From: a virus
Virus record (IMG/VR): IMGVR_UViG_3300011013_003468
Span: 1 to 57,401 of that record
DNA: 57,401 nucleotides
Direction: 5' to 3' (one strand)
In this document: positions 12,513-35,100 of the stretch, piece by piece
Layout: every line of letters starts with the position of its first letter
How positions within the stretch are numbered: the first letter of the stretch is position 1
Program-made: the position numbers and the translations under genes
The notes under the pieces: model-generated
What the model was told of the DNA's origin: nothing
The model's input: only the letters and a program-made list of their open reading frames with translations
The model's database searches: none

Positions 12513-12737
12513 ATGAGAAAAATACAAGTTTATTTAAATTCATTAGATGAAATTGAATTTGAAGATAATACCACATGGGGTGAATTAAAAAAATATTTAG
12601 TTTATAATAAAAATTATCCATCAGCTGTAAAAGCATTAGATGATAATAGTAATATTTATTCTAATGATGCTGATAAATTACCTGATGGTAATTTGAGTTT
12701 AACATTAATTATTGAAAAAACTAATTATGGTATATAA
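12513..12737 (+). CDS. Ubiquitin-like modifier candidate (beta-grasp, PRTRC protein C-like), 74 aa
   Basis: The length and pattern fit a beta-grasp modifier: strand MRKIQVYL, second strand DEIEFEDNT followed by the helix TWGELKKYLVYNK (compare the ThiS/MoaD/Ubl pattern of a Thr before the helix), a loop region, and a last strand LSLTLIIEK. The C terminus is TNYGI: a Gly followed by one residue, so trimming one residue would expose a C-terminal Gly ready for adenylation. It is followed by an E2-like, a JAMM and a ThiF gene in the same order as PRTRC cassettes (protein C, B, A, ThiF). A terminator-like hairpin separates it from the E2 gene. Context makes this call; sequence alone would be weak. 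Confidence 0.65.
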   Translation: MRKIQVYLNSLDEIEFEDNTTWGELKKYLVYNKNYPSAVKALDDNSNIYSNDADKLPDGNLSLTLIIEKTNYGI

Positions 12738-12761
12738 TTAAATTTTAAATAAAATAATAAG

Positions 12762-12796
12762 AAAGAAGTAAATTTATAATTTACTTCTTTTTTTTT
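12762..12796 (+). terminator. Hairpin with T-run between the Ubl and E2-like genes
   Basis: AAAGAAGTAAAT (12762-12773) pairs perfectly with ATTTACTTCTTT (12779-12790); Ts continue to 12796. It follows the Ubl gene by 25 bases and precedes the E2-like gene. It would allow high expression of the modifier with partial read-through into the enzymes. Confidence 0.75.
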
Positions 12797-12807
12797 AAAA
12801 TAAAGTT

Positions 12808-13881
12808 ATGAAAACATTAAAAAAAATATTAATAGATAATATAGAAAAAGAATTAAATTTAATTAAAATAGAATACGAAATAAAAGAAAAAGAAAATGGT
12901 AATATAAATGTATTATTATATTATCCTGAAGTAAATTTAAATTTAAATTTAACAAAAAATGATAAAATAATTAAAAATGTTTATAAAATTATTGATTTAT
13001 TTATTTTAATTGAATTTAATTTAAAAAATCCTAACATTTTTATTTCAGGTACAAGAACTACATTTAAAAAAAAAGAATTAGCAGTAGGATTTATTCATCC
13101 ACATCTTCCAAAATTTAGTAATTTAAATACTTATAATTCTTCTAATTCTCCTAATAATTTAAATTATTTTTGCTTAGGTAATAGTGATTTAAGAGATGAT
13201 ATTTATAAATTAACTAAAATAATTACTTCATATTTTGAAGATGCATTAGTAAATACTTATTTAATTGAATTAAAATTTTTATTAAAAAAATTTTTTTATG
13301 ATGTAAATAGTTTAGCTCATACAGAATCTGTATCAGGTATTCCTTATATTAGTTATACACAAGTATTATCAAATAATTTGATATCTATAAATGATTTTTC
13401 ATTTGTATTAAATAAAAGTAATTCATTAAGTATACTTATTGAAGAAATATTAAATTATATTATTAATAATAATTTGATAGATAAAGTAATAATAAAAGAT
13501 GGTTTTATATATGATATAAAATTAAATTTAACTAAAAAAGATGTAGATAATATTTTAAATAAAGTAGATTTATCTATTTATAATACTATTTTATTAAATA
13601 ATATTATAGTTTTTAATATCGATGAGGATTATGATAATACTTATATTTATAATGGAAGAGATAATTATAATTTAAGTATAATAACAAAAAATTTAAAAAA
13701 TGGACTATATTATATAAATTTTAAAGATAAAATATATGAGTTTAAAATTATAGAAGATGTAGATGAAAAAGAAAATCATTTGATAGAATATAATTTACAT
13801 CCAAAATTAAAACAAATAATTATAAATACAATAAATAACAATTTAAAAGAACAAATGTTAAAAAACCAATTAAAAAATTAA
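12808..13881 (+). CDS. E2-like ubiquitin-conjugating protein (PRTRC protein B / Prok-E2_D-like)
   Basis: Residues about 15-150 look like an E2 fold: paired strands (NINVLLYYPEVNLNLNL), then AVGFIHPHLPKF with His97-Pro98-His99, and after a short Ser/Asn-rich loop NYFCLGNSDL with Cys122. This parallels the HPN...ICL arrangement of E2 enzymes, where the Cys carries the modifier as a thioester. Cys122 is the only cysteine in the 357-residue protein. The C-terminal ~200 residues are not recognised and may hold a partner- or target-binding domain. It lies between the modifier and the JAMM gene, 4 bases from the latter. Related proteins are annotated in PRTRC cassettes; identity to that family should be checked by profile search. 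Confidence 0.7.
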   Translation: MKTLKKILIDNIEKELNLIKIEYEIKEKENGNINVLLYYPEVNLNLNLTKNDKIIKNVYKIIDLFILIEFNLKNPNIFISGTRTTFKKKELAVGFIHPHLPKFSNLNTYNSSNSPNNLNYFCLGNSDLRDDIYKLTKIITSYFEDALVNTYLIELKFLLKKFFYDVNSLAHTESVSGIPYISYTQVLSNNLISINDFSFVLNKSNSLSILIEEILNYIINNNLIDKVIIKDGFIYDIKLNLTKKDVDNILNKVDLSIYNTILLNNIIVFNIDEDYDNTYIYNGRDNYNLSIITKNLKNGLYYINFKDKIYEFKIIEDVDEKENHLIEYNLHPKLKQIIINTINNNLKEQMLKNQLKN

Positions 13882-13885
13882 AATT

Positions 13886-14704
13886 ATGAAATGTATAATT
13901 AAAAAAGAAATTCACGATCAAATACAATATGTTTGTCAAAAACATCCAAAAATAGAATGGGCAGGCATATTTTTTTATAAAATTAATAAAGATAAAATTG
14001 AAATTTTAAAATTTATGCCTCAAATATATGGAAATTTTGGAAGTGTATCTACTAATGAAAAAATAGAATTAAAAACAGTTAAATTTAGAAATAAAAATTT
14101 TAAAAAAGAAGAATTAAAAAATATATATACAGGTAGAATACATTCACATAACAATATGAATGTATTTTTTAGTAATACTGATAAAGATCATTTAAATCAA
14201 TTAGTAAGTGTTAATCAACCAATATTTTCTATTGTTACTAATAATAATAGTGAATATCTTGGTTATTTAGCTTATTACGTAACACCATTTTATAATATTA
14301 AAAAATTAATTATTGAAGAAATAATTCCAGAAATAGAAAATAATATAAAGGTATCTGATGAATTTAAAAAATTGGTAGATGATATGGATATTAAAAAATC
14401 TAATAATTATAGTAAAATTAATTTTAATATAAAAACACCAGAATCAAAACGTTTTGAAAATTATGAATATTATAATTATTTTGATGATAATTTTAATCAT
14501 GAAGAATTTACTGATGAAGATGATATACTTATAGAATTATATGATGATTATATTGATTTTTTAAATGATCGATTTCAACAAATTGAAATTGATTATAATA
14601 ATTTTAAATATTTTCATACACCAAAAATTTTAAATGAATTTTTAAAAGAAAACAACAAATTAAAATTAAAAGATAAATTTTATAAACTTATAAATTCAAT
14701 ATAA
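13886..14704 (+). CDS. JAMM/JAB metallopeptidase (PRTRC protein A-like)
   Basis: All JAMM zinc and catalytic residues are present and correctly spaced: Glu24 in IEWAGIFFY, then GRIHSHNNMNVFFSNTD with His86-x-His88-x7-Ser96-x2-Asp99. JAMM enzymes cleave after the C-terminal Gly of ubiquitin-like proteins, to mature the precursor or to remove it from targets. The modifier next door ends in Gly-Ile and would need such trimming. After the JAMM core (~150 residues) there is an acidic, Asn/Tyr/Asp-rich C-terminal half (NYEYYNYFDDNFN) of unknown role. The stop overlaps the ATG of the E1 gene (TAATG), so the two are translated together. Confidence 0.87.
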   Translation: MKCIIKKEIHDQIQYVCQKHPKIEWAGIFFYKINKDKIEILKFMPQIYGNFGSVSTNEKIELKTVKFRNKNFKKEELKNIYTGRIHSHNNMNVFFSNTDKDHLNQLVSVNQPIFSIVTNNNSEYLGYLAYYVTPFYNIKKLIIEEIIPEIENNIKVSDEFKKLVDDMDIKKSNNYSKINFNIKTPESKRFENYEYYNYFDDNFNHEEFTDEDDILIELYDDYIDFLNDRFQQIEIDYNNFKYFHTPKILNEFLKENNKLKLKDKFYKLINSI

Positions 14705-15411
14705 TGAAAACAAAAGATAGATTTAAAGGATTTGATTGGATGAAACCCATATTAAATAATGAAGCACCAATAATAGAAATAATAGGTTGTGGTGGTATAG
14801 GTAGTAATCTTGCTTATTTATTAGGAAGAATTGGATATAAATTAGAAATATCTGATTTTGATATTGTTGAACCACATAATCTTGGTGGTCAATTTTTTGC
14901 TAATAATCAAATAAATATAAAAAAAGTAGATGCTATTAGAGGTGTTTTGAAAGCATTTACTTCTGATTCAGATTATAATAAATATAGAGATGAAAGAAAA
15001 AACAAAATATCAAGACGTTATACTGTAATGGCAGTTGATAATCAATCAACAAGAAATAATTTATTTAATCATTGGAAAGAGAGTTTACTTAATGATCCTG
15101 ATAATAAAGATAATACATTTCTTATAGATGCTTCTTTAACAGGTGAAACCTATCATTTATATTATTTAGATAAAAGAACATCTGAAGAATATATTCTTAA
15201 ATATAAAGAATATTTAGATAAAATTATAAAAAATGAAATTGGTTGTACAGTAAAACAAACAAGTCATATTGCAATGAGATTAGCTGCTGATATTACTGTT
15301 TTGATTAATAATTATTTTAGTAATAAAATTAATAAAAAAGATTTTAGAAAATTATATTTTCATAAATCTTTTAATGCAGTATTAAATAAAGACGAAATAG
15401 AATATTATTAA
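14704..15411 (+). CDS. ThiF/E1-like adenylating enzyme (PRTRC ThiF-like)
   Basis: A Rossmann-type E1 domain of 235 residues: nucleotide loop IIGCGGIGSN (Gly28-Gly30-Gly33), acidic strand SDFDIVEPHNLGGQFF (Asp51, Asp53, Asn59), KVDAIRG, and AVDNQSTRNNL (Asp112). A cysteine in NEIGCTVKQTSH (Cys181) sits where PRTRC-type and other E1 proteins carry the candidate thioester cysteine. It would activate the modifier's C terminus with ATP and pass it to the E2-like protein. The Arg of the usual NLxRQ motif is Gly61 here. No zinc CxxC pairs are present. It begins at the last base of the JAMM gene. This is the strongest member of the cassette. Confidence 0.88.
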   Translation: MKTKDRFKGFDWMKPILNNEAPIIEIIGCGGIGSNLAYLLGRIGYKLEISDFDIVEPHNLGGQFFANNQINIKKVDAIRGVLKAFTSDSDYNKYRDERKNKISRRYTVMAVDNQSTRNNLFNHWKESLLNDPDNKDNTFLIDASLTGETYHLYYLDKRTSEEYILKYKEYLDKIIKNEIGCTVKQTSHIAMRLAADITVLINNYFSNKINKKDFRKLYFHKSFNAVLNKDEIEYY

Positions 15412-15427
15412 TATAAAACAATTAATT

Positions 15428-15991
15428 ATGAAATTTAATGAAGAATACGTACATCACGATTTAGATTTTTTTTATTTTAATATTAAAATACCATTATTGT
15501 TTTTAAACAGAAATAATGAAGATAATTCTAATGATATTAATGATATTTTAAAAGAGAAAAATATTTATTATTTACCTAATTTTGAAAAAGAATTTGATAT
15601 TTTTACAAACCCTGATGAACTTGACGTAAATGATGTATTTGTTAATATTAACGAAGTTTATAAATTAAATTATCAAGGTATAACACATTATGCTTATAAA
15701 GGTTTATTTTTTAATGGTTTGTTTGATATTGAAAATACAATTTTTGCTTATATTATAACAGATAATTATCTTGATTATTTAATAATTGATAGACAATTTT
15801 ATAATAAACATAAGAGAGCTATGAATTTTTTATCATCAAAATTAGATTTACCAAGAAATCCATTATTATTAATTGATAATTTATCGAGTTTAATACAAAA
15901 AGTTAATTTAAAATCAACAGAACAGAATATTAATTATATTAAAGATAATCTTAAAATAACTGATGATAAAATAAATTATAATTTATTATGA
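15428..15991 (+). CDS. Hypothetical protein following the E1 gene, 187 aa
   Basis: Not recognised. Alpha/beta composition with a strand-rich middle (YAYKGLFFNGLFDIENTIFA) and a helical C terminus; no cysteines or membrane segment. It starts 16 bases after the E1-like gene with an AATTATG context and its stop overlaps the next ATG, so it belongs to the ubiquitin-like operon. It could be an adaptor, a target-recognition subunit or a PRTRC accessory; none of these can be read from the sequence. No internal similarity to the equally long next gene was seen. Confidence 0.6.
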   Translation: MKFNEEYVHHDLDFFYFNIKIPLLFLNRNNEDNSNDINDILKEKNIYYLPNFEKEFDIFTNPDELDVNDVFVNINEVYKLNYQGITHYAYKGLFFNGLFDIENTIFAYIITDNYLDYLIIDRQFYNKHKRAMNFLSSKLDLPRNPLLLIDNLSSLIQKVNLKSTEQNINYIKDNLKITDDKINYNLL

Positions 15992-19912: not shown

Positions 19913-22900
19913 TTATTTTTTCTTTTTTTCTTTTTTCTTTTTTTCTTTTTTTTCTTTAATTAATTTTCTATCCCAATAATCTTTTGAAGGTATTGTCCAA
20001 TCTTTTTTAGTATAATTTCCTAATCCTCCATAATTAACAAAAGCAGGAATAAATGCTCTATTAGTATCTCTTAATAAAGGATGTTTATTATTTTTTGTTT
20101 TATTTAATTCACCAAAAATACTTTTTTCTATATCTCCTAATAATTTAATTACATTTTGTAACCAAGTTACTAAACTTATTTGACTATAATTATTATAAAT
20201 ATCTTTTGGCTTTGCATATAATGTAGCATTACTAATAAGATTCATTATTTTATTTTCAAAAAATAAATATAATTTATGTTTATATTTACCTTCTTCATCG
20301 TCATCATCATCCGCACCTCTTAAACTAGATAACATTAATTTAAATGCAATCATTGCTAATAATATTGATATATCAGCAATATTAGCTTGTAAATTTTTAG
20401 TATCTAATTCATTTAATTTTAAAGATTTTAAATTAGCTTGCCCATATTTTGTTGCGATTCCAAATAAATGTAATGGTGTAAATAATGATTTTTTTAATAT
20501 ATTAAAACTAACAATAGCTAATTCTTTAATAAATCCTATTTCAGTATTAACATTATTAAAAGAAGCTATTGTTGCACCTAATGCTCCTGTAATTAATGAT
20601 GTAATAGGACCTCCTATAAGACCTATAGTTGCACCAAAAATTCCTCCACTAATTGGTGTAAATGATCTATATCTACCTTTTACTTTTTTATCTTTAGTGA
20701 AAATACTTTCTTGTTCAGTAGCAAATCTTTGCCATATTTGATTTGGTAGCCATGTTTTAAATAATGATACTGCTCTACCTGCAGGATTTGATTTTAGTAA
20801 CATACCACCCAAAGATTCATAATCACCATGAATACTTGCTATTGCTTGTAATACTTTATTTTTAAATGTATTATAATTATCTCCTTTAAAATTTTCCCAA
20901 TTATCTATATTTTCTTGACTTCTAAATTCTTCTTTTAATCTCAATGTATCATTTACTACTTCAAAAGCCGTAAATTTATTACCATCAAAAATAGGAACTT
21001 TTTCACCTGTTTTTGCATTAGTTATATAAGTATCTTGTAATATTGCTAATACATCAGCACCTTGATTTCTAAATTCTATTGAAGAAATTGATATATGATA
21101 TGGTGATAATTTATGTATATTTCTAAATCTTGATTTAACAGAATTTTTTTGTAATTCATTAGATGTATCTTGAAGAATTTTATAATCTTCTATAATATGT
21201 TTTAAAATATCCCATTGTTTAGCAAAATCACTATGCTTATTTATTCTTTTTCTAAATCCTTGACTAACAAATAATTCTGCATGACCCATATTACCTGGTG
21301 TCCAATATAATCCTGATGTATCTGCAATCATATTAGCAAATTTTCCTTCAATTCTATTTGTTATAGCTGAAGAAACATTATACGCTAAACCTTTAAATAT
21401 TATCAACGATAATATACCATCTACTATTGAACCTATAGATAATCTATCACCTACATTATTTATTATATTATTTATTTTTTCTATTTCATCAATTAATTCT
21501 TTTTGTTTTGCTTTATCAGTATTTGTATTTTCTAATTTTTTTAATTCTTTTAAATAATTATTTCTAATTCCTAAAAATTTTTTTACTTCTTTAAATTCTT
21601 CTTTTGATACTAAAGCACCTGTTTGTAAAAACATAAAAAATCTTTTAAATATTTTTTTATCATAATAAGGTTTTTTTGTTTTTAAACCTGTAAATATTTT
21701 TTCACTTATTTCTTTATTTTTTCCTTTAACTAACCTATTATAAGCAAATTCCATTCTTTTATTAGCTCTTACTCTTTCTTTATCAGTTCTATTTAATAAT
21801 TTTTCTATTAAATTCATAACACCTTTTATCTTCGTATTTTTTTCTATATTAGTATAATATTCTTTTAAAGTATTCATTATAGGTTCTGTTTCTAATCTTG
21901 CATTATATGTTGCTGCTGCTGTTAATGCTGTTCTAATAATTCTTGGTATATCTTGTGAACTTTCATTTGTTATTCTATTTAATGCTATTTTATACATTAA
22001 TTCTTTTACATCAATGTTTAATATACCTATATATTTTTTTAATAAATTAATATCGGGTTTTACATTAAATTGTTCTGCTAAAAATGTTAATTGTGAATTA
22101 GTTAGATTATGAATATTATTGATAATATCTTTACCATTTATTGATTTCCAATAAATTAATAATTTATCTATAGTTGTTTTTAATTCTGTTTGTTTCCTAT
22201 CATAAAATTTTTTATTTATACCTTTATTAACTATTTCATTATCATAAATAGTTTTTGAAATAACAAAATTTTTACTAAAACTATTTAAAAAATTCTTAAA
22301 TATTGATTTCTTTTTTGAAGATATTGTTCCTTTTTTATTAGAATCTAACATTATTTCAATAAATGTATTTTCTATTGCAGGTATAGAACTAGCAGGTAAA
22401 CTATGATATTGATCAGAAAATGTAATATTTATATATTTTAATGCATCTTCTAATGCTTCCCAATAGTTATATAAATCTTCATCTTCTAAAATATATTTAA
22501 AATCTTTATTATAATATCCAGTATCTTTTTCTATTTCTTTATTTGTATATGCATCTTTATATTTTATCTTTTGCTTAGGTAAAAATGTAGTATATCTTAT
22601 ATCTAATGTATATCCATTATCAGAAAGACCATGATTTTTTTCAAAATATTTAGCTACATAAAATGGATTAGATAATTCGTTTTTATATTTTAAATAATTT
22701 TTAATTTTTTCTTTATGCTCTTCATCATCTTTAATTCTTCCATCTATTAATTCTTCACTAACATTAGATTTAGCTCTAAATTCTTCAATATTTTCTATTA
22801 TTTCTTTTATTATTTTATTATATAATCTTGGATTAAGAATTTTTTTTAAATTTTCAGTATATTCTTTATCTTCTTCTAAAAATTCTTCAAATTCTGTTCC

Positions 22901-25900
22901 TTTATATTTTTCTACAATATCAGTTAATTTATTTATATCTATTATATTGGCATTCTTTAATAACCACCTATATTTTGGTTTAACATTTTTTTCTTTTATT
23001 ACTTTATTTTTAAAATCTTTAAACCATTTAGGGCTAAATATATTTATTAATTTACCTGTTTTTGTTCCATCTAAATTCTTTTCAAAAAATATATCATAAG
23101 ATGTTGCTGTAATTCCTAAACTTTTATATTCCTTTAATTTCTTTTCTACTTTTAATTGAACTGTATCTAATTTATTTAATACTTTAGCCATATCACCATT
23201 AGCTTCATCAATAGCCTTTCTCATTTCGCTTAACATTATTTGTGGAATAAGACTATCTTCTGAAAAAGTATTTGTAGATAAATTTTGCATCATCATATCC
23301 CAAATACTAATATCTGGTTTATTTTTTATTAATTTTTCTATTGTAAGTCCTTCAAAATTTTTTAATAATGGTGAAGTTGATAATATTTCATTGACTTTAT
23401 CAGCTAATATATTTTTAAGTTTATTTTCTATACCTATAAAATCATCTTTTATTTTATATAATAAATCTTTTATTTCTTTTAATGATTCATCTACTCCTAT
23501 CATTTTTAATAATTCTTTCGTAAATAATAAATTCTTATTATCTATCTCAAAATTTCCAATATTTTTATAAAAATTTATAATATTTTGTATTTCAATTTTA
23601 TTTTTAATTGGATCTTTCATTAAAATATTCTCAATTAAATATTTATGATCATTGATCATACTATTTAAAAATTTAATATAATCTACATTTTTCTTTTTTA
23701 ATAATTCATATATATTATTTAAATTTTCTATTATATGATATAATTTAGATATTTCTGTATCTAATTCTTTTATCTCTTTTGGATTACTATTTCTTTTTTT
23801 AATTCTTAATCTATTTATTCTTTGTTCTAATTCTTTTATATTAGTATTTAAAATATTTTTAAAATTATTTTTTAAATCAATTATATTTGAATTTAAAGAT
23901 AAAGGTAAAAGATCTTCTTCATCTAATGTATATAATGTAGGAACAAAATCATCACTAAAATTTCTTTCTATAATATCATTATTATTCATTACTTTTTTTA
24001 TATATTCTTTTGATGGCGCTATTACTATTTCGTTTGTATTATTATAAAAATCATAATAAACTATTCCAGAACCATAATCCATATTTATTTTAGATGCTAC
24101 CAATTCACCATTTATACCTTTTTTAATAATTAATGAATCATCTTCTATTCTATCTAAATTATTTCTATATCTATTAAAAATATCATTTATAATTAATTTT
24201 TTTATTCGTTCTTTTTCATTTTTATAAGATTTTTGATTTGGATATGGGATTGTTTCAGTAGGATAATCTAAATCAATTCTTAATAAAAATGCATCAGCTA
24301 AAGTTCTTCTTAATCTTTCTTTTGTTGCTTTTGCTAAATTATTAAAAGATTTTATAATCCAGTGAATAAATGTTTTCCACCATCTATTAGCTTCACCTTT
24401 TTGTAATATAACTTGATTTGTTACTTCTTCTACTAATTTTTCTTTACTTCCCCATTTTTCAATACCTTCTCTCACAATAGGTGTATCTTTAAACCATTCT
24501 AAATATTGATGTACATACTGATATGGTAAATAATATTCATCTTCTTTTTTATCAGAATTATCAACTATTGCAAATAATGCATTTAAATTATTTTTATTAT
24601 CAATATCAAATTTTATATTTTTTAAATTTATTTCTGGATATAATTCTTCTAAAATAGTAGTTATATTATTATTTATTTGTTCTTTAATATCTTCTGATTT
24701 TTGATAAAATATATTATCGTTAGATTCATTAGAACTTAAATCTATTTTTTTATTACTATTTAAAACAAATTTTGTTAATTCTTCTAATGTAGTATTAGGA
24801 TTGATATTTTTTGAATCTATTTCTGATAAATTAAATAATTGTTTTATATAATCTATTAAATTATTCCAAAACATTTTAATTTTATCAATCAAATTTTTAT
24901 CTTTTTGTTTATCTAATTTATTTTTAGCATATAAATCAATAGCTCTTGCTATATATTCATGATCTTTATTAGAAGTATAGTTTTTATCTACATAATCAAC
25001 TACTTGTTTATTACTTTTAGCTTCTTCTAATAAATTATTATATAATTCAGGATTAGTCTTTTCTATTTGTAATAAAAAAGGATGTGTGAATATCTCGTGT
25101 ATAGCACTTGTTTTATCAGCTTTTCCTTTTACTAAATAAGCTTTTTTAGTTTCGGAATTATAAAACCCTGATGGTATATCACTATTATTTTCTTGATAAA
25201 AATTTTGTCCTTCTAATTTTTTATTTATTTGATATTTATTTTTTAAATAATTAGATAACCATTCTAAAGCATCTTTTCGATTTGTAAATTCTAAATTAAT
25301 TTGAGCTTCCATAGCAGCTTTAACGATATTACCTAATTCCTTTCCAGTTTTAAATCCTAAAGCTAATAAATCTTTTCCTGTTATTAATGGTTTTATTTTT
25401 TTACTATCTCCAAATTCTTTTTTAAATTCTTTAAGTAATTCATTAAATTTTTTAATTGTTTCTGGTACAGGTGTATTTTTATTATTTCTGCCTAACATAT
25501 CTGCTTCCATTAATCTTACTAATTCTTCAATAGATGCACTTTCTAATCTTTTTGATAACTTTATAAAAGCAGATTTTTGTCCTTTTATATCTTGAATAGA
25601 TGTTATAGTAGCATGTGCTAAATGTTCTTTTATAATAGGAATGACTTTTTTTATTATAGAATTTCTTATTCCTAATTTTTTTAAAAATTTTTCACTAATT
25701 TCTGCACTTTTTGCTTCATGACCTCTTGATGTTATTACTTCTCTATTCTTTTTTGGTACAAATGTTTTTTTTGTAGTATCTATTTTTCCAATATCATGTA
25801 GTAATGCACTAAACATTAAAACTGCTTTTTCATCTGCATTTAAATTTTCTCTTTTAGCAATATTATTTGCAACATTCATTACCTGTTTAGTATGTTCTTC

Positions 25901-28900
25901 TACATCCCCTTCAGGATGATACTCAAAATCTTGTTCTATATCTTTAAGTTTTATTAATTTTGGGAAATATTTTTTACCAATACCTGTATCTCTTAAAAAA
26001 TCAAATATTAATTGAGGATTACTCCCTTTAATAGCCCATTTTAACCATTCTTGTTCTATTCTTTCTTTAGGTAATTCATCTATCATATTTTTTTCTACCA
26101 TATCACGGATTAAATTAGCTGTTTCTGATGCCAATTTATATCCCATTCTACTTTGAAATTGCATAGCTCTCAAAATTCTCAATGGGTCTTCTTTAAATTT
26201 ATCGCTAACATGCCTTATAATACCTTCTTTTAAATCTTTAATTCCCCCATAATAATCGTACAAAGTTTTGCTTATAGGATTATACCCTAAACTGTTCCAA
26301 GTAAAATCACGTCTTTCTGCTGCTTCTTTTATAGTGATATTTTTATCAAATTCTGTTTTGAATCCTGTATATCCTTTACCTGTTTTATTTTCTCTTCTTG
26401 GTATAGAAAAATCAAACGGCTCTTCTATATCTACTAATTCAGTAGTACCTTTTTTATAAGGTATAAACTTTAATATTCCAAAACTTTTTCCTACTTCATT
26501 TACTTTACCATATTTCTCTAATATAGATTGTAATTCTTCTAAGGATACATTGTATATTTCTATATCAATATCTTTAGGTTTTTTACCTAATAAAGCATCT
26601 CTTACAGCTCCTCCAACAATAAGAGAGTTCATATTCTTATTATTTAATTCTATAAGTACAGGATTAAGTAAATTTAATAATTTTTCATTTATTGGTATAT
26701 CTACTTTTTGTTTTTCTATATTTTTTAAATTTTCTAACTCTTTTATTATTTTTAATTTCTGTTCAAAAACATTTTTGCTTGAATTAAGAATTTCTTTAGC
26801 ATTTTCTTCACTAATTAATTCAACAGGAATATTAAACCTATTACTTAAATCACTAGCAAAATTTTCTAAAGTATTTTCTATTTCAGATTTAGTTACTTTT
26901 TGAAATGGAAATTCATCTACATCAAAAAGATTATTATTATTATTAATAGGTTTTACTTTACTCCTAATTAAAATTCTTGGATATTTACGCATTCCTTCTT
27001 TTAATGCTGCTATTTTGACATTAGCTTTTATTTTAGGATCATCTTCTTCATTTTCATTATTTATTACTTCTTCATAAATATCATTTATATCTTTTTTTAA
27101 ATTATTATAAGTTATAGTAGGTTTTTTTTCACCATTAACTTCCAAATCTTTTAATTTTTTTTCAATTACTTCAACTTGTTCTTTTAATTCTTTTATTAAT
27201 TCATTATTTTTATTACTATATTTTTTACCATAAGATAATAATTTTATTCTTTTTTTTAATTTAACCATTTTTTTTATTAAAGTATAACTATTATTATCAT
27301 TTTGCACTTTAATTTTAGGTTCAATTAATTTGCCATATCTTTTATCTAATATATCATTAATACCATCAATTAATTTTTTAGTAGAATAAGGTACATCATC
27401 ATCATATTCTATTCTAAAATTATTATAAGTAAGAGCTATAGCTAGTTCATTATGATCGTATGTTAATTTATTTATTATATTAGTTAAATTTGGTTGTACT
27501 GCATTTAATGATTTTGATTCAGGTGCTTTAGTATAACTAATCCCTGCTGTTTCTTTTTTTAAATATTTATCAAAGTAAGCATACGAATCCCAAACACTTC
27601 CGCTATGAACATCTCTGTTTGCAGCCCATTTAATATCTTCTGATTTAGGAAATATTTTAATTCTTATTTTATTACCAAAACCTTCGAGTTTAGTAATTCT
27701 TTTATTAATTGGTTTAGTAAGTGCTGATACAATAAATTCTATTTTTGCTTTTTTATTATCTTCAATATTATTTAATAAATTTTGAAGCATTAATTCTAAA
27801 TCAAAATTTGAATATCCTCCTACAATTGAATAAAATCCTTGCCCTCTACTATATATTTCTTCCGGATTATATATAATATTATTAGTTTTTAACCATTTTT
27901 TTATAATTTTTATAGATAAGTTAAAATCTTTGTTTATTTCTGCAAACTTTTCTAATTCATCATCTTTAAATATATCTTCATTTTCAATTTCAAATTTATC
28001 AACTGGTATTACACTATCATCATAATCATCTAGATTTATTTTTTTTAATTTAAATAATTTAGTAATATGATTATTTGCTTCTTGATAAGTTTTAAAAGTT
28101 TTATTATCAGGTGTAGTATATATTACTTCATAACCTGGTAATATTAGTTTAGAATTTCTATAAGCTAATAAATCAGCTAAATTACCTAAAGTCATATCTG
28201 GTCTTAATTCTTCTATTTTAACTTCTCTTTTAGAAAACAATGATTTCATATAATCAGTCATTTGTTCCCATAATTCTTTTAATAGAGAAATTAAATTTTT
28301 ATCTTTAACTTTATCTAATCTATCAGCAATATATTCACCTAATAATTGAACAATAGCTTCTTCTTGTTGCTCTTCTAAAGAATATTTTTTTTCTACAATT
28401 TTTACATTTGGAAAATTTTCAGAATTTTTTATGTATTGTTTAAATGTATAATAATCTCCAAATTCTATTTTTTTTTCATCTCTATATTTAAAAGATAGTT
28501 CTTTATATTTGTAGTATTTTTTAACTCTATCTAAAACTTCTTTACCTCTACCAGTTTCAAGTTCTTTAAGTAGGCTTTGATATAAAGATGTTTCTTCATT
28601 AAAGTTACTAATTGGTTCACTTTTAATATCTTCAAGCATCTGCTTATAAGATGCAGCATGTCTGTCAATAGTTTTATCAGAAACAGCAGCTCTATTTTCA
28701 CCTCTCTCTAGTTGTGCTTTAATTCTTTTTTTAGCTAATTCGGGATTTAATTCCATTAATTTATATTGAATATTAGCTGTAGGTATTTCTTTTTTAATAG
28801 CTCTTATGAATGGTAATCTCTTTTCTTTCGTTAAATTAGTAGTATCAAATACCACTTGTTTACCTTCTTTTAAAGCATTTATTGCTCTTTTAGCAGCTTC

Positions 28901-31900
28901 AGCATAAATTTCTTTATCTTTAGATTTATCATTTATATTACCTGTAAATTCTACTCTCATTGCATCAGGTTCTATAACTACTAAATTTTTTTGAGGTAAA
29001 GATTTGATAAATGTACTTTTACCACTTCTACTTGTTCCTATAGGTAATAATACATCAAACTTATATTGTCTATTCTTAATAGCTCTAATAATAGGATGTC
29101 CTAATATTTCGTGTATAGGAGTATCTAATGTTGCATGATTTAAATTTATTATTGCTGTATTATCTTTTAAATAACCTTTATAATTTTTATTATTATCTAA
29201 CCATTCTTCTGCATCTTCCTTTGAATTAGCATAATATATATCTTTATTTTTAGATTTTATTTCATTGTCTATTACAATCCATTGCCCATCTCTATATATT
29301 ATTTGTGGATTTTCAAATTCTATATCTAAACCAATTCTATAAGCCATTCTTTCAGCTAAATCTCTAATAGTTTTTTCAGAAGCTACATAATCTTCATCTG
29401 ATTGGTTAGTATTGTTTTGGTAATAAATATTATCATCTGAATTTTTCTTTACATTATTATAAGCTTCCTTTAAAGCTCTCATAAATCCTCCATTAGGACC
29501 TTCCCAAAATTTATCTCCAAATCCTTCATGTGTTGATTTATTTAAATATTCTAAACCTCCTCTTTCATCTATACCTTTTATTAATTCAGGATGCTGCTCA
29601 AATTTTAATTCGAGAATACGAACTATTATGTTAAAAGATTTAGATATATCTGCTTTAAATCTTCCTCTTGGTTTAAATACTCCTTTATTTCCTTGTCTAT
29701 AAGCAAGATCATCAAATTTACCTGATTTAAAAGTTTGATAAGCGTGTTCTGAATTTTTAAATATATATGTTTTTCCTGATTTTGTTTTTATTTTAATTTG
29801 CAAATTATTTCCAGGATTAGTTAATTTTCTAGCAAATTTAGAGCCTTTACTTGTTATATTTTCTCCTTTTATATTTTGTTTATTTTTATTTTCATTATTA
29901 TTTAAAATTAAAGGACTTAAATCTGCATCATTTATTTTATCTTCAAAAACATTATTATCTAAATTTATTAATCCTATATTTTCTTTTTTTAGATTTAATT
30001 TGTCTTCTTCTGCTAAATATAATTCTAATTTCTTTTCATTTATATTTTCTTTTTTTAAATTTTCTATATTAGATTTAAATTTATATATATTAGTTTTAAT
30101 TCTAACTTTTGATTTAGCTCTTGTTATAGCTGTATATATCCATCTATTTTTATTCCATTTATCAGATATCCAATCAGCATCTATATATACATTATTCCAC
30201 TCATTACCTTGAGATTTATGTGCTGTTATACTATATCCATAAGTAGCTATATTAACTTTTTTATCCCAAATATTTTCTTTACCATTATAAAAAGAAAATG
30301 GCTGTTGATGAAAAAATTCATTTGTTAATAATTGAGATCCATGTAATGATGGAATAGGTAATTCAGGAAATAATAAGGTATAAGTGCTAACTTCTTTATT
30401 ATTTAATATTGTATCATGATATATCAATATTCCTTTTAATTTTATATTTCTTGGATTAAATTCAGTACCAACATTTATTTCTTCTTCAAATTTTTTTATT
30501 ATTTCTGGATTTTTTACAGTATATATGTCACTGTTCATAAATGCATTGTTTGAAACAGAAATTAATTTTTCATTATTGTTAATAGCATTATTAGCTTTAT
30601 CACCATATTTAACTTCTCTTATTTTTCTATTATAAAAAAGTCTATTTTTATTTGTTGATACTATTACAACATATTCTTTATTATTTTTAAAATCATCAAC
30701 TAACTCTTGTCCAAAATTACTTACTTTTTTAAATTCATCAGAATTAGGATTATATATATTATCATTATTTGTTCTTAAATCTGTAGCTGATAATAATATA
30801 TCACCGTCTTGTCTTTTTACTTCTTGTAATTCATATTTATTTTCTTTTTTAAATATTTCTTTATTCCATTTAAATAATTCTGGATTTTTGCCTACAGGTT
30901 CTAATTGGAAACCATCACCCAAAAATATTATTTTATTATTACCTAATTTAGCTTCTTTTATTAAATCATTTAATATTTTTTCATCTATCATAGAAGCTTC
31001 ATCAATAATATATACTTCATCATTACCTAATCCTTTATTAATCCATTCACCTGTTTCTGGATCTGGTGAACCATATAAAACTTTATGTATTGTAGAAAAA
31101 TTATTATCATCTTTATCAGCATTGAATTTTTCTTTTAATCTTTTAACAGCTGCATTTGTTGGTGCTAATAACATTCCTTTTGAATAATTAGCTATATTTT
31201 CTGCAATAGTTGTTTTACCTGTTCCTGCAAAACCCGCTAATAAAAAGAAATTATCATTGGAATTTAAAAAATTTTCTATTTTTAATAAAGCATTCTTTTG
31301 ATCATTAGTATATATAATTTTATTTTTTCTCATACCTAAAATAGAACCTGATATATTTCTATTTAATTTATTTAATATTTTTTCTCTTTGACTTCCACTT
31401 TTATATACTTCTCGACCTTTTGATGTTTTATTTAAAGAAATAATTCTATTATCGTTTAAAATAAAATATTTACTATTGTTATATTCTATAATTCTATTTT
31501 CATCATATTGCTGCTTAATAAGAACTTTATTTTTAATTGTTTCATCGGTAACTTCTTTACCATTTTTATAAACCATTTTACTATCAGGCATTATTATTAT
31601 TTCATATTGGTCTATTTTAAATGTATTAGAAATAGATTTTTTAGTTTCTGATTTTTCAGATTGCTTTGATATTTCTGTTTTTTCTAAATTATTGTTTAAA
31701 TATTCTATTGCTTTATCATAAGAATCTATAAATTTATTACTATTAATAGCTTTAAATAATAATATCGGTTTTTTAAAATTTTTAGAAGCATATTTTAATA
31801 TTTTATTAATTATATTTTTTTTTAAAAAATCTTTTGATAATTCTGTTAATTGATTATTTATATTATTAATATTATCATTATAATTTATCTTTTCATCATC

Positions 31901-32128
31901 TAATATTCTATTTATTATATCTATTTTATTTGTAGGAATATTTTTACCTTTTGTTATATTCCATATTTTATATGCAACATTTATTGCAAATAAATCATTA
32001 TCTTTTCTCTTATTACGTAATTTTACTGACTTAAATTCTTCTATGCTTAATGGCTTTCCATCAAACATTTTAACAATTGAATTAAAATCATTTCTTACTT
32101 CTATATCATCTATTTGTGGACAAAACAT
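19913..32128 (-). CDS. Giant polyvalent protein, 4071 aa: SF1 helicase, NADAR, P-loop kinase, CCA-type nucleotidyltransferase/HD, peptidase-like modules
   Basis: Visible modules in order: residues about 270-690, SF1 (RecD/Pif1-type) helicase with Walker A GFAGTGKT (299-306), VYIIDEASMID and FLGDGFQLEPVG; about 755-892, NADAR-like domain (NSEHAYQTF near 792, KFEQHP, FGDKFWEG); from 1006, HEILGHP of a metallopeptidase-like module; about 1022-1190, P-loop kinase of the T4 Pnkp/AAA_33 type (GTSRSGKST at 1031, VVFDTTNLT); the module's second half follows with Glu1257; about 1810-2250, tRNA nucleotidyltransferase (CCA/poly(A) type) with VGGAVRDALLG at 1838 and DID (Asp1853, Asp1855), then HD domain ALLHDIGK (His2111, Asp2112); a second module HEIFTHP at 2344 with Glu2391; a degenerate third near 2540. 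Then ~1000 residues of helical/coiled-coil sequence, hydrophobic stretches near 3830 and 3915 and a Lys/Glu tail. In crAss-like phages this position is held by large proteins of the RNA-polymerase/ejection block, so virion packaging is likely but inferred. Confidence 0.88.
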   Translation of the reverse strand: MFCPQIDDIEVRNDFNSIVKMFDGKPLSIEEFKSVKLRNKRKDNDLFAINVAYKIWNITKGKNIPTNKIDIINRILDDEKINYNDNINNINNQLTELSKDFLKKNIINKILKYASKNFKKPILLFKAINSNKFIDSYDKAIEYLNNNLEKTEISKQSEKSETKKSISNTFKIDQYEIIIMPDSKMVYKNGKEVTDETIKNKVLIKQQYDENRIIEYNNSKYFILNDNRIISLNKTSKGREVYKSGSQREKILNKLNRNISGSILGMRKNKIIYTNDQKNALLKIENFLNSNDNFFLLAGFAGTGKTTIAENIANYSKGMLLAPTNAAVKRLKEKFNADKDDNNFSTIHKVLYGSPDPETGEWINKGLGNDEVYIIDEASMIDEKILNDLIKEAKLGNNKIIFLGDGFQLEPVGKNPELFKWNKEIFKKENKYELQEVKRQDGDILLSATDLRTNNDNIYNPNSDEFKKVSNFGQELVDDFKNNKEYVVIVSTNKNRLFYNRKIREVKYGDKANNAINNNEKLISVSNNAFMNSDIYTVKNPEIIKKFEEEINVGTEFNPRNIKLKGILIYHDTILNNKEVSTYTLLFPELPIPSLHGSQLLTNEFFHQQPFSFYNGKENIWDKKVNIATYGYSITAHKSQGNEWNNVYIDADWISDKWNKNRWIYTAITRAKSKVRIKTNIYKFKSNIENLKKENINEKKLELYLAEEDKLNLKKENIGLINLDNNVFEDKINDADLSPLILNNNENKNKQNIKGENITSKGSKFARKLTNPGNNLQIKIKTKSGKTYIFKNSEHAYQTFKSGKFDDLAYRQGNKGVFKPRGRFKADISKSFNIIVRILELKFEQHPELIKGIDERGGLEYLNKSTHEGFGDKFWEGPNGGFMRALKEAYNNVKKNSDDNIYYQNNTNQSDEDYVASEKTIRDLAERMAYRIGLDIEFENPQIIYRDGQWIVIDNEIKSKNKDIYYANSKEDAEEWLDNNKNYKGYLKDNTAIINLNHATLDTPIHEILGHPIIRAIKNRQYKFDVLLPIGTSRSGKSTFIKSLPQKNLVVIEPDAMRVEFTGNINDKSKDKEIYAEAAKRAINALKEGKQVVFDTTNLTKEKRLPFIRAIKKEIPTANIQYKLMELNPELAKKRIKAQLERGENRAAVSDKTIDRHAASYKQMLEDIKSEPISNFNEETSLYQSLLKELETGRGKEVLDRVKKYYKYKELSFKYRDEKKIEFGDYYTFKQYIKNSENFPNVKIVEKKYSLEEQQEEAIVQLLGEYIADRLDKVKDKNLISLLKELWEQMTDYMKSLFSKREVKIEELRPDMTLGNLADLLAYRNSKLILPGYEVIYTTPDNKTFKTYQEANNHITKLFKLKKINLDDYDDSVIPVDKFEIENEDIFKDDELEKFAEINKDFNLSIKIIKKWLKTNNIIYNPEEIYSRGQGFYSIVGGYSNFDLELMLQNLLNNIEDNKKAKIEFIVSALTKPINKRITKLEGFGNKIRIKIFPKSEDIKWAANRDVHSGSVWDSYAYFDKYLKKETAGISYTKAPESKSLNAVQPNLTNIINKLTYDHNELAIALTYNNFRIEYDDDVPYSTKKLIDGINDILDKRYGKLIEPKIKVQNDNNSYTLIKKMVKLKKRIKLLSYGKKYSNKNNELIKELKEQVEVIEKKLKDLEVNGEKKPTITYNNLKKDINDIYEEVINNENEEDDPKIKANVKIAALKEGMRKYPRILIRSKVKPINNNNNLFDVDEFPFQKVTKSEIENTLENFASDLSNRFNIPVELISEENAKEILNSSKNVFEQKLKIIKELENLKNIEKQKVDIPINEKLLNLLNPVLIELNNKNMNSLIVGGAVRDALLGKKPKDIDIEIYNVSLEELQSILEKYGKVNEVGKSFGILKFIPYKKGTTELVDIEEPFDFSIPRRENKTGKGYTGFKTEFDKNITIKEAAERRDFTWNSLGYNPISKTLYDYYGGIKDLKEGIIRHVSDKFKEDPLRILRAMQFQSRMGYKLASETANLIRDMVEKNMIDELPKERIEQEWLKWAIKGSNPQLIFDFLRDTGIGKKYFPKLIKLKDIEQDFEYHPEGDVEEHTKQVMNVANNIAKRENLNADEKAVLMFSALLHDIGKIDTTKKTFVPKKNREVITSRGHEAKSAEISEKFLKKLGIRNSIIKKVIPIIKEHLAHATITSIQDIKGQKSAFIKLSKRLESASIEELVRLMEADMLGRNNKNTPVPETIKKFNELLKEFKKEFGDSKKIKPLITGKDLLALGFKTGKELGNIVKAAMEAQINLEFTNRKDALEWLSNYLKNKYQINKKLEGQNFYQENNSDIPSGFYNSETKKAYLVKGKADKTSAIHEIFTHPFLLQIEKTNPELYNNLLEEAKSNKQVVDYVDKNYTSNKDHEYIARAIDLYAKNKLDKQKDKNLIDKIKMFWNNLIDYIKQLFNLSEIDSKNINPNTTLEELTKFVLNSNKKIDLSSNESNDNIFYQKSEDIKEQINNNITTILEELYPEINLKNIKFDIDNKNNLNALFAIVDNSDKKEDEYYLPYQYVHQYLEWFKDTPIVREGIEKWGSKEKLVEEVTNQVILQKGEANRWWKTFIHWIIKSFNNLAKATKERLRRTLADAFLLRIDLDYPTETIPYPNQKSYKNEKERIKKLIINDIFNRYRNNLDRIEDDSLIIKKGINGELVASKINMDYGSGIVYYDFYNNTNEIVIAPSKEYIKKVMNNNDIIERNFSDDFVPTLYTLDEEDLLPLSLNSNIIDLKNNFKNILNTNIKELEQRINRLRIKKRNSNPKEIKELDTEISKLYHIIENLNNIYELLKKKNVDYIKFLNSMINDHKYLIENILMKDPIKNKIEIQNIINFYKNIGNFEIDNKNLLFTKELLKMIGVDESLKEIKDLLYKIKDDFIGIENKLKNILADKVNEILSTSPLLKNFEGLTIEKLIKNKPDISIWDMMMQNLSTNTFSEDSLIPQIMLSEMRKAIDEANGDMAKVLNKLDTVQLKVEKKLKEYKSLGITATSYDIFFEKNLDGTKTGKLINIFSPKWFKDFKNKVIKEKNVKPKYRWLLKNANIIDINKLTDIVEKYKGTEFEEFLEEDKEYTENLKKILNPRLYNKIIKEIIENIEEFRAKSNVSEELIDGRIKDDEEHKEKIKNYLKYKNELSNPFYVAKYFEKNHGLSDNGYTLDIRYTTFLPKQKIKYKDAYTNKEIEKDTGYYNKDFKYILEDEDLYNYWEALEDALKYINITFSDQYHSLPASSIPAIENTFIEIMLDSNKKGTISSKKKSIFKNFLNSFSKNFVISKTIYDNEIVNKGINKKFYDRKQTELKTTIDKLLIYWKSINGKDIINNIHNLTNSQLTFLAEQFNVKPDINLLKKYIGILNIDVKELMYKIALNRITNESSQDIPRIIRTALTAAATYNARLETEPIMNTLKEYYTNIEKNTKIKGVMNLIEKLLNRTDKERVRANKRMEFAYNRLVKGKNKEISEKIFTGLKTKKPYYDKKIFKRFFMFLQTGALVSKEEFKEVKKFLGIRNNYLKELKKLENTNTDKAKQKELIDEIEKINNIINNVGDRLSIGSIVDGILSLIIFKGLAYNVSSAITNRIEGKFANMIADTSGLYWTPGNMGHAELFVSQGFRKRINKHSDFAKQWDILKHIIEDYKILQDTSNELQKNSVKSRFRNIHKLSPYHISISSIEFRNQGADVLAILQDTYITNAKTGEKVPIFDGNKFTAFEVVNDTLRLKEEFRSQENIDNWENFKGDNYNTFKNKVLQAIASIHGDYESLGGMLLKSNPAGRAVSLFKTWLPNQIWQRFATEQESIFTKDKKVKGRYRSFTPISGGIFGATIGLIGGPITSLITGALGATIASFNNVNTEIGFIKELAIVSFNILKKSLFTPLHLFGIATKYGQANLKSLKLNELDTKNLQANIADISILLAMIAFKLMLSSLRGADDDDDEEGKYKHKLYLFFENKIMNLISNATLYAKPKDIYNNYSQISLVTWLQNVIKLLGDIEKSIFGELNKTKNNKHPLLRDTNRAFIPAFVNYGGLGNYTKKDWTIPSKDYWDRKLIKEKKEKKKKEKKKK

Positions 32129-32158: not shown

Positions 32159-35100
32159 TTAACAATTTTCATGTTCATTATCTAATATATTTTTTAATAT
32201 AGATAATTTTTTATTTATTTCTTCTTCTTCTTTATCTTTTTCTTTTTTTATATTCTTATTCATATTTTCTTCAATTTTATTTTCTTCAATTTTATTTTTT
32301 TCAACTTTATCTTCTTTTATTTCTTTTTCCTTTATATTTGATTCGGTTTTCTTATTATCTATTAAATTTTCAGGATAATATTCATTATATACAAAATTCA
32401 TAATTCTTATTGCTGCTTCTTCAGCTAATGAACCTTTTTTAAATATTCCTAATTTATTTAAAAAGTTTCTAATTGCATTAACAAATTTACTAATAATATT
32501 TTTCCCTTTATATTTTTTAGAATTTAATAATTGTATAAAATTTTTATTAGTGAACATACCTGTTATAAATTCTCTAACATTATATAAAGGATAAAATGCT
32601 TCTTCTTCAGGTGTTAAACTGACTTCTAAATTAGATAAATTATTAATACCTTGAATATGCATCTTATCTAATTTATTTTTCATAGAGATATAATAGGGAT
32701 TAGTACTAAATAATTTTAATGCTTCTATATATATATTTCCTAATTCTTTAACATGATCTGGTGCATTAGGATCTAATATTAATCTTCCATTTGATTTTAT
32801 AAAATATTTTTTTAATTCATCACTTGTTATACTATGAATATATTCATGAAGTAAATTTATTAATAATTTACTTGGTGTATTCGATTCATTTGGATTTAAT
32901 ATAATAGTACCATTTTTATAAGTACCTTTTGCGTTTAAAGAACTATCAAATTTAATATGTATTGTTGATTTATTAAATTTAATAAATTCTGTTATCAAAT
33001 CTTTAAATCTTTTATTATTATCATTTAATATTGATAATATATATCCTAACAATTCTTGTAATTGATCATTATCAATATAACTTTTAATTTTTTGTAATTT
33101 ATCTTCTTTTGTAGTATTACTAATAGATGCTTCTTTTGATTTTTCTATTTCTTTTTCAATATCTATTGCTAATAAACTATTTTTATTAAAAATTTTAATA
33201 TGACCTCTTTTAATCGTAGGTATTTCTATATATTTATTATTTATTAATTTATATAATTTATATCTTTTATTTTTATCATCTGTTTTTTGGTATTTGGCTA
33301 TAAATTCAGGAACTAAATCTGGATTTTCAATAGCTTGTTGTTCTAATTCTTTAATTTTATTATCATCTTTAACTTTATATGCGTATTCAGGATAATTTTG
33401 AAATAATTGTGTTATATAATTTGTTATATTTGTAGATAAATTAATAAAATCATTATAATTAAATAATTCTTTAGTAGCACCTATATTTTTAAAATAACTA
33501 AAAGGAATATATTTTGTAAATTCAACAGGACCAGTTTGTGGATTAGTTAATAAATTATAATTTATTAAATCTTGTGCATAATCTCTACTTGTATAAAAAC
33601 TTTCTATTTTATAATAATATTGTGGTTCAGTATATCCTGTATATCCCAATTCATTTAATTCTTCTACACTAAGTTTCCCATAATTAATTACTTTATAACT
33701 TTTACCATTTAATTTAAATTTTCCTCTTTCATTAATTTTTAAATCTAATTTATTTTCTTTACTTAATATTACATTAGCATTTGAAGAAATAATAGGTTCA
33801 AAAATTTTAGAATCTAATTCTTTATAATTAGCAGTATCATAATTATAATCTGGCAATTCTATATTTGAAGCTATTAACTCATCTATTGCAGAATATAAAG
33901 CATCTTCATATAGTAAAGATCCATTTGTGTTTACAAATTCTATTGTTGAATATTGACCACTCTTTTTAGCAATTTTAAAATCTAATCTTTTTAATAATTC
34001 ATTAGAAAATATCGGATGATTTCTATTTTTTAATAATTCTGAATATAATGCTAAAGATATATTATTTTTGGTATCTAATAACAATCTATTTCTTTCATTT
34101 TCTATAGTACCAGAATAAAAAGGTAAAATATCATCAGTTAATAAAAAATTTTTAATATTCGCCCAAAATATTTTACTATATTCTTTTTTCTTGTATTTAT
34201 TAGTTGCATTTGATGATGCTAAAAATTTATTTAATTCATTGTGTAATAAGAAATTAAATTCAGGATAATAAGAACTATAAAATTTTATAGTTGTAGACAA
34301 TCCTTGTAGTACCATATTAGATAAATAATTACTAGGTTTTATAAGAGTATTATATATTTCTATAAAACCCATATCTAAATACTTATTCTTATCAACAGTT
34401 GATGTAATTGGTATTACTTCACCTAATAAAACATTAGGATTTTCAAACAATCCGTTTGGAGATATTAAATATTCTAAATTATTAACAAGATCTTTTATTT
34501 CTGTAAAATCACCTGCCAAACGCTTAGATATATCCAAAGCTGTTACTGTATTTAATAATACATCATTATATTGACTCAAATTAAGAAATGTTTTTAATAT
34601 TATAGCTTGAAATTCTTTATTAGGATTAGTTAAATTATTTATTAAATCTTCTACATTTATAATTTTATCAGTATTTATATTATCAAAATTTTCTATGTTG
34701 TATTTTTTTAATATTTTTTCTAATAATTTACTTTCAGCATTGGCTTCATAATCTGAACTAGCAGCTTTTAAATTTTCTATCTCTTTAACATATTCTTTAA
34801 TAATAGGTTGTGATAAAAAATAATATGATAAATAAATATTACCTTGTGAACTTTTTGCTTGATCAAAGCCTGCTAATGTTAATAATTCATCTACATTTAC
34901 TGTATGTTTATTTAAATTAACTTTACCTAATACATTAGCTTTCATATTATCTACCGCTGTTTGTACTCTTTCTTCTATTACTTCTGTTATATTTCTATTA
35001 CCATCTAAAGTTTTTATTTTTCCTAATTTACCATCAAAACTTATAATGTTACCTTCAATATCTTTAAATTTTGGAAATATACTTGGATCTGATACTTTTA

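Follow-up and report, generated by a model that had tools for sequence, protein, structure and literature searches.

Why would a bacteriophage keep a set of ubiquitin-type conjugation genes among its replication genes, and which proteins would such a set modify? The question is raised by a 57,401-nucleotide stretch of viral DNA (IMG/VR record IMGVR_UViG_3300011013_003468, positions 1 to 57,401; analysed in full and referred to here as the window), in which four consecutive plus-strand genes at 12513-15411 encode a ubiquitin-like modifier (Ubl), an E2-like protein, a JAMM metallopeptidase and a ThiF/E1-like adenylyltransferase (Table 1). Bacterial Ubl conjugation is known chiefly from defence systems and from plasmid cassettes without known function. 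A sequence-only reading of the window had proposed that the four genes form a complete conjugation cassette of a crAss-like phage, resembling the plasmid PRTRC cassettes, with which the phage might turn the chemistry of the bacterial Bil defence systems against its host. Based on the comparison of the window with its relatives, we consider the cassette to be probably a phage-owned system for Ubl conjugation and deconjugation, inherited vertically as a core component of the replication module in one crAss-like lineage, namely the Bacteroides-infecting Steigviridae, the Flavobacterium Fpv phages and their relatives.

Proteins of the cassette

The four genes lie where the sequence-only reading had placed them, and the residues that it named were all correct, including the FCLG context of Cys122. 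Profiles made without the window sequence recovered every one of the four proteins (Ubl, 2.8e-8; E2-like, 7e-28; JAMM, 1.2e-26; ThiF, 1.4e-53), so that each is a member of its family and a chance pattern is excluded. In alignments of 33-43 diverged relatives, depending on the gene, invariance is confined almost entirely to the predicted catalytic residues and to the last glycine of the modifier. The invariant columns are L25, L56 and G73 in the Ubl (mean column identity 33%, 39 relatives), H99, C122 and G124 and no others in the E2-like protein (15%, 43 relatives), E24, G27, H86, H88, S96, D99 and S115 in the JAMM (25%, 33 sequences), and W12, G28, G30, G31, S34, D51, D53, N59, G62, Q63, K74, D112, R117 and D142 in ThiF (25%); C181 of ThiF is nearly invariant.

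The modifier was modelled by AlphaFold (pLDDT 91.8) in a beta-beta-alpha-beta-beta order (strands 2-7 and 11-16, helix 22-33, strands 39-43 and 61-67), and Foldseek matched the model to NEDD8, ubiquitin and SUMO in the PDB with a probability of 1.00 and template modelling (TM) values of 0.7-0.78; it also matched the ubiquitin of Bacteroides fragilis and an E1-E2-Ubl complex from bacteria. The predicted fold is beta-grasp, in agreement with the sequence-only reading. Hidden Markov model (HMM) scans gave no significant family match for the modifier, and Prok_Ub (PF14454) was unmatched. In five cases its open reading frame (ORF) stops 0-5 residues past the conserved glycine: the window protein ends G-I, that of locus L028 exactly at G (...TKTKLG-stop), that of L029 G-E, that of cr106_1/L031 G-KF and that of L034 G-NEKKH. 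Other relatives carry a long extension beyond this glycine, of up to ~200 residues. The invariant glycine and the short ends fit a glycine that is, or becomes, C-terminal. The modifier domain and its extension are separated in cr106_1 by a gene for an HNH endonuclease, and in L001 (3734-4937) an HNH endonuclease gene splits the modifier domain, ending KIKSGKF, from the ORF of the C-terminal extension. Tandem modifier genes, two in number and both with the conserved glycine, occur in L026 (2509-3497). A SAP/HeH DNA-binding domain was considered for the extensions of the relatives; the Pfam hits were all sub-threshold, so it is not claimed.

The JAMM contains the E...HxH...S...D metal site of JAMM/MPN+ peptidases, all five residues being invariant in the 33 sequences. 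Pfam Prok-JAB matched 25 of the 33 relatives (the window protein at 7.4e-4, below the cut-off), and the PADLOC JAB model matched at 4.7e-9. ThiF has the E1/ThiF hallmarks (GxGGxG, DxD, catalytic Asp/Lys and a downstream cysteine) and matched Pfam ThiF at 7.1e-12 and NCBIfam PRTRC_ThiF at 4e-6, the latter far under its cut-off. The best PDB match of its profile was UBA5 (1.8e-13), with bacterial ThiF at 4e-11. These matches uphold both enzyme identities that had been read from the motifs.

The 357-amino-acid protein was modelled with a pLDDT of 81.7 as helix 4-19, strands 22-27, 33-50, 53-71 and 76-83, HPH97-99, Cys122 and helices 127-144 and 148-171. This predicted order of elements is compatible with the E2 fold, and the gene occupies the operon position of PRTRC-B/Prok-E2_D. 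The protein had no significant family match in the HMM scans; the search of Prok-E2_D (PF14460) and the PRTRC families that the sequence-only reading had recommended gave no Prok-E2_D match and no PRTRC model above cut-off. Strong matches of the protein in BFVD include same-family proteins of crAss-like viruses and no named E2, and tblastn with the window protein against phages gave no match. Relatives that read YMHSH raised the idea of a degenerate second JAMM, which was ruled out by hhalign to the JAMM profile (2.2%) and by the different predicted topology.

Table 1. Features of the cassette and its 3' neighbour in the window.
Feature	Position	Strand	Properties
Ubiquitin-like modifier gene	12513..12737	+	ATG start, 74 amino acids; beta-grasp (predicted); penultimate Gly73 and one-residue tail Ile74
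Terminator-like hairpin, Ubl/E2 junction	12759..12796	+	16-bp stem, 3-nt loop, then T-run
E2-like gene	12808..13881	+	ATG start, 357 amino acids; HPH97-99, Cys122, C-x-G motif, ES..G.PY motif
JAMM/Prok-JAB metallopeptidase gene	13886..14704	+	ATG start, 272 amino acids; E24, H86-S-H88, S96, D99
ThiF/E1-like adenylyltransferase gene	14704..15411	+	ATG start, 235 amino acids; GCGGIGSN, DFD, N59, K74, D112, Cys181 in C-T-V-K-Q-T
Candidate fifth gene, unnamed	15428..15991	+	187 amino acids; basis positional, directly 3' of ThiF

Placement, inheritance and gene structure

Using tblastn, the window ThiF found matches in Steigviridae (cr106_1, cr128_1, cr85_1), Flavobacterium Fpv-type phages, Dulem virus 41 and bajarodcaudo virus 1, and no match in plasmids; each of the phages matched has the same block. 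A profile search of IMG/VR gave 53 further loci, and the window ThiF as a single query gave none. All four genes are present in fixed order and strand in every sufficiently long locus (50+ contigs), and PhiCrAss001 (gp76-79) and DAC15 also carry the cassette; the assignment of the window to a crAss-like phage is well supported. Existing records label the cassette genes 'thiamine biosynthesis protein', 'metalloprotease' or hypothetical.

The cassette is placed downstream of a Sak4-like annealing protein and the primase, the order in crAss-like phages being primase, Ubl, E2-like, JAMM, ThiF, an unnamed gene, UDG and then mostly a resolvase and an exonuclease; UDG is found upstream of the modifier in Fpv1 and in L028. 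From Bacteroides to Flavobacterium hosts the order of the cassette genes is unchanged. Pairwise distances of ThiF, JAMM, E2-like protein, Ubl and primase correlate at 0.76-0.92 (ThiF versus primase, r = 0.86, 0/2000 permutations), and since the cassette distances track the primase, the cassette was inherited together with the replication genes. A survey with ThiF and JAMM profiles was positive for both in PhiCrAss001, DAC15 and cr85_1 and found neither in eight Suoliviridae genomes nor in Cellulophaga phage phi14:2 (NC_021806). The latter is classed as Steigviridae, and the lack of ThiF and JAMM points to either loss or a questionable family placement. Scanning cellular genome contigs with two conserved patterns only returned two loci and no bona fide cellular copy: L064 was rejected as the contig of a crAss-like phage that had been assigned to a Clostridium metagenome-assembled genome (MAG), and L065 as having ThiF without partner genes.

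The hairpin at the junction of the modifier and E2-like genes of the window has a folding energy of -15.1 kcal/mol (z -4.5). A hairpin with a T-run was found at 38 of the 42 Ubl/E2 junctions of 30-200 nt, compared with 29/150 other plus-strand gaps of the same loci (Fisher 2e-17, a p-value that is too small since the loci are related), and the sequences vary freely among loci despite the kept hairpin. The window hairpin is unlisted by a standard terminator scan, in which 3 G-C pairs are required and stem and tail are restricted. We infer that the hairpin acts as a terminator.

Group I introns (Rfam) lie inside the codons of the JAMM HSH metal site in L044 (4549-4808) and L054 (4480-4726), and the gene is also split at or adjoining these codons in L002 and L026, where Rfam gave no match. 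Homing introns habitually enter conserved sites. In L057 (6806-8740) it is ThiF that is split, around a 271-amino-acid homing-endonuclease-like ORF. L028 (8299-10651) carries a second set of E2-like, ThiF and following genes with key residues intact, and no second modifier or JAMM within the stretch read. The hairpin, the introns in the metal-site codons and the vertical co-inheritance with the primase are new observations of this analysis.

Upstream of the cassette in the window are genes for a polymerase, helicases, a Sak4-like annealing protein and the primase, and the virion-protein genes are on the opposite strand, a gene content as expected for a crAss-like phage. The cassette is adjoined by the primase and the unnamed 187-amino-acid gene. 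An unnamed gene directly follows ThiF in nearly all loci examined, including the second ThiF of L028; the leave-one-out profile of this family did not recover the window copy, whose place in the family is therefore unproven. On the minus strand, a 4071-amino-acid ORF (19913-32128) with Pfam matches to an AAA_30/UvrD_C_2 helicase, a P-loop AAA_33 domain and an HD-domain-bearing poly(A) polymerase/CCA-adding head encodes a polyvalent protein, part of which is apparently tRNA nucleotidyltransferase-like, and a 4211-amino-acid ORF (32159-44794) has no Pfam match at 0.001.

Proposed working and competing explanations

We propose that the modifier carries one functional C-terminal glycine, Gly73, and that the tail beyond it, one residue in the window, may be trimmed by the JAMM. 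ThiF would adenylate this glycine and then take the modifier onto Cys181, Cys122 of the E2-like protein would accept it with the HxH motif assisting, and the modifier would be transferred to lysines of target proteins, from which the JAMM would also remove it. The terminator-like hairpin 3' of the modifier gene would provide an excess of modifier over the enzymes, as for a substrate that is consumed. The targets may be phage, or captured host, proteins of DNA replication and recombination. The fixed placement, the vertical descent and the introns in active-site codons favour a core function over an accessory one in anti-defence. Tentatively, we suggest as a plausible role in this large lineage of human gut phages that the modifier is put onto proteins of the replisome or of recombination and taken off again by the JAMM, a viral counterpart of replication control by ubiquitin and SUMO that is kept as a core function and not as a means of defence or anti-defence.

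Several points weigh against a conjugation system of this kind. No E2 was among the 50 PDB matches listed by Foldseek for the E2-like model, and hhalign to PRTRC-B gave 0.3%, which is not significant; with both comparisons negative we term the protein E2-like and not E2, and its name, drawn from operon position, catalytic-type residues and predicted topology, is the weak link of the proposal. The sequence had no PDB match, which says little since the curated PRTRC-B used as a control (Prok-E2_D, 4.8e-53) likewise has no PDB sequence match; the Foldseek negative stands. The word 'complete' was accordingly slightly too strong for the cassette, in which the Ubl, the JAMM and ThiF have held up and the E2 fold is unconfirmed. 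The Ubl has a single glycine and not the usual Gly-Gly, an E3-like protein was not identified, and the location among replication genes is an only circumstantial pointer to the target. As eight Suoliviridae and phi14:2 do without ThiF and JAMM, the function is also dispensable in some crAss-like phages.

Related E1, E2 and JAMM enzymes are used in bacterial defence, the phage JAMM and ThiF have PADLOC matches, and the duplication of E2-like and ThiF genes in L028 could reflect two target sets; all of this would suit a host-directed anti-defence role, in which the modifier is conjugated by the same enzymes to host immune or regulatory proteins, in reverse of Bil. We hold such a role to be somewhat unlikely, because the cassette is in a fixed order within the replication module and not among variable accessory genes, this order is constant across Bacteroides and Flavobacterium hosts, and divergence tracks the primase, whereas anti-defence genes are usually patchy. 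The phage-owned pathway of the sequence-only reading is well supported as a cassette, but a weapon against the host looks improbable for a vertically inherited replication-module set. The weak link at the E2-like protein leaves room for conjugation without an E2, ThiF transferring the modifier directly, as for SAMPs and Urm1, and the 357-amino-acid protein being a scaffold or target with an essential cysteine. The E2 fold unconfirmed by Foldseek and by the PRTRC-B profile comparison, the very long strands 33-50 and 53-71, unlike a standard E2, and the mere three invariant residues would agree with this explanation. It is nevertheless unlikely, as an E2 fold has the order predicted here of helix, four strands, HxH, Cys and two helices, the local alignment to PRTRC-B that scores best, while not significant, covers the H..N...C-x-G core, and the E2-like and ThiF genes are duplicated jointly in L028, as an E1-E2 pair would be.

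A sulfur-carrier function, with ThiF thiocarboxylating the modifier as for ThiS/MoaD in biosynthesis or RNA thiolation, the JAMM releasing it and the 357-amino-acid protein being a cysteine acceptor enzyme, appears very unlikely. It could draw on the single-domain ThiF with no separate catalytic-cysteine domain, on the thiamine annotations of the records and on the absence of an E2 from the Foldseek matches, but the modifier has no Gly-Gly tail, no listed neighbour carries an annotation as a further thiamine, molybdopterin or sulfurtransferase gene, the genes and their order agree with PRTRC, in which the second enzyme belongs to a curated E2 family, and a dedicated JAMM with an invariant HxH...C protein better fits conjugation. 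Least credible, in our judgement, is a role in assembly through conjugation of the modifier to virion or cargo proteins: Bil has been reported to act on phage tails via Ubl conjugation (as cited in PMC12135933), but the cassette belongs to the replication block, the virion-protein genes of the window are on the other strand, and the main text of the PhiCrAss001 structural paper does not mention gp76-79.

Among open-licence papers, none that our searches turned up describes Ubl conjugation in a crAss-like phage, although a subscription paper could exist, and the terms 'ubiquitin' and 'ThiF' are absent from the main text of the PhiCrAss001, crAss-like MAG, structural-atlas, crAssBcn, WH2-phage and review papers. 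These widespread gut phages keep a full Ubl-type gene set in their replication module, conserved and passed on vertically. Carriers have been cultured, namely PhiCrAss001 (Bacteroides intestinalis), DAC15 (B. thetaiotaomicron), the crAssBcn isolates and the Flavobacterium Fpv phages, so that phage protein tagging and its targets can be tested now.

Relation to known ubiquitin-like systems

The bacterial anti-phage systems Bil, Bub and CBASS type II (Cap2/Cap3) combine E1, E2-type and JAMM activities, to which Bil and Bub add a Ubl. The phage JAMM matches the CBASS-type JAB of PADLOC and ThiF the E1 part of its E1-E2 models, which are fused, whereas the phage E1 and E2-like proteins are separate; neither the E2-like protein nor the modifier was matched by PADLOC. 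Unlike those systems, the cassette is phage-encoded and lies in a replication module, and no Bil, Bub or CBASS type II defence genes, CD-NTase or effector were seen among the neighbouring genes examined. In the UFM1 system (UBA5-UFC1), UFM1 is also processed to one terminal glycine, and UFC1 has no standard HPN motif. The small margin of UBA5 over bacterial ThiF in the PDB search suggests a likeness in working and not membership, and processing, which is by a cysteine protease for UFM1, would be by the JAMM in the phage. The tail-assembly pair TAPI/TAPK of lambda-like phages likewise combines a phage-encoded Ubl and a JAB peptidase (PMC1779556), but is without E1 or E2 and belongs to a tail module, whereas the present cassette is in the replication module.

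Plasmid PRTRC cassettes (ParB-E-C-F-B-A-ThiF; apparently type 6d in Iyer et al. 2006, PMC1779556) are close in gene content: they have the Ubl, E2, JAMM and ThiF in the same relative order and are also set in a mobile replicon. In the plasmid cassettes protein F lies between C and B; ParB, E and F are not among the neighbours of the phage loci, and PRTRC-A has an N-terminal domain that the phage JAMM is without. In the phage E2-like protein the conserved histidines precede the cysteine, whereas type 6d E2s are described as having no classical histidine and one downstream (PMC1779556). The curated cut-offs were unmet (TIGR03736 ThiF, 26 bits versus 145; TIGR03735 A, 12 versus 102), and with no ParB, E or F we do not class the phage cassette as PRTRC. 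Homology to the PRTRC proteins is not demonstrable from sequence for the E2-like protein or the modifier (Ubl versus PRTRC-C, hhalign 0.1%, not significant). Several of the aligned PRTRC-C proteins end in ...TKG or ...AKG, similarly to the phage ...T-K-S/L-G. By profile comparison, ThiF (hhalign 99.4%, E 5e-21, the alignment running through Cys181) and the JAMM (versus PRTRC-A, 95.2%, E 2.5e-8, with a common HSH...FFS.TD) are remote homologues of their PRTRC counterparts, which bears out the resemblance that had been noted from the sequence. Two proteins of shared ancestry in an identical order make a common cassette origin with PRTRC likely, and an answer on phage protein tagging would also inform the role of PRTRC on plasmids.

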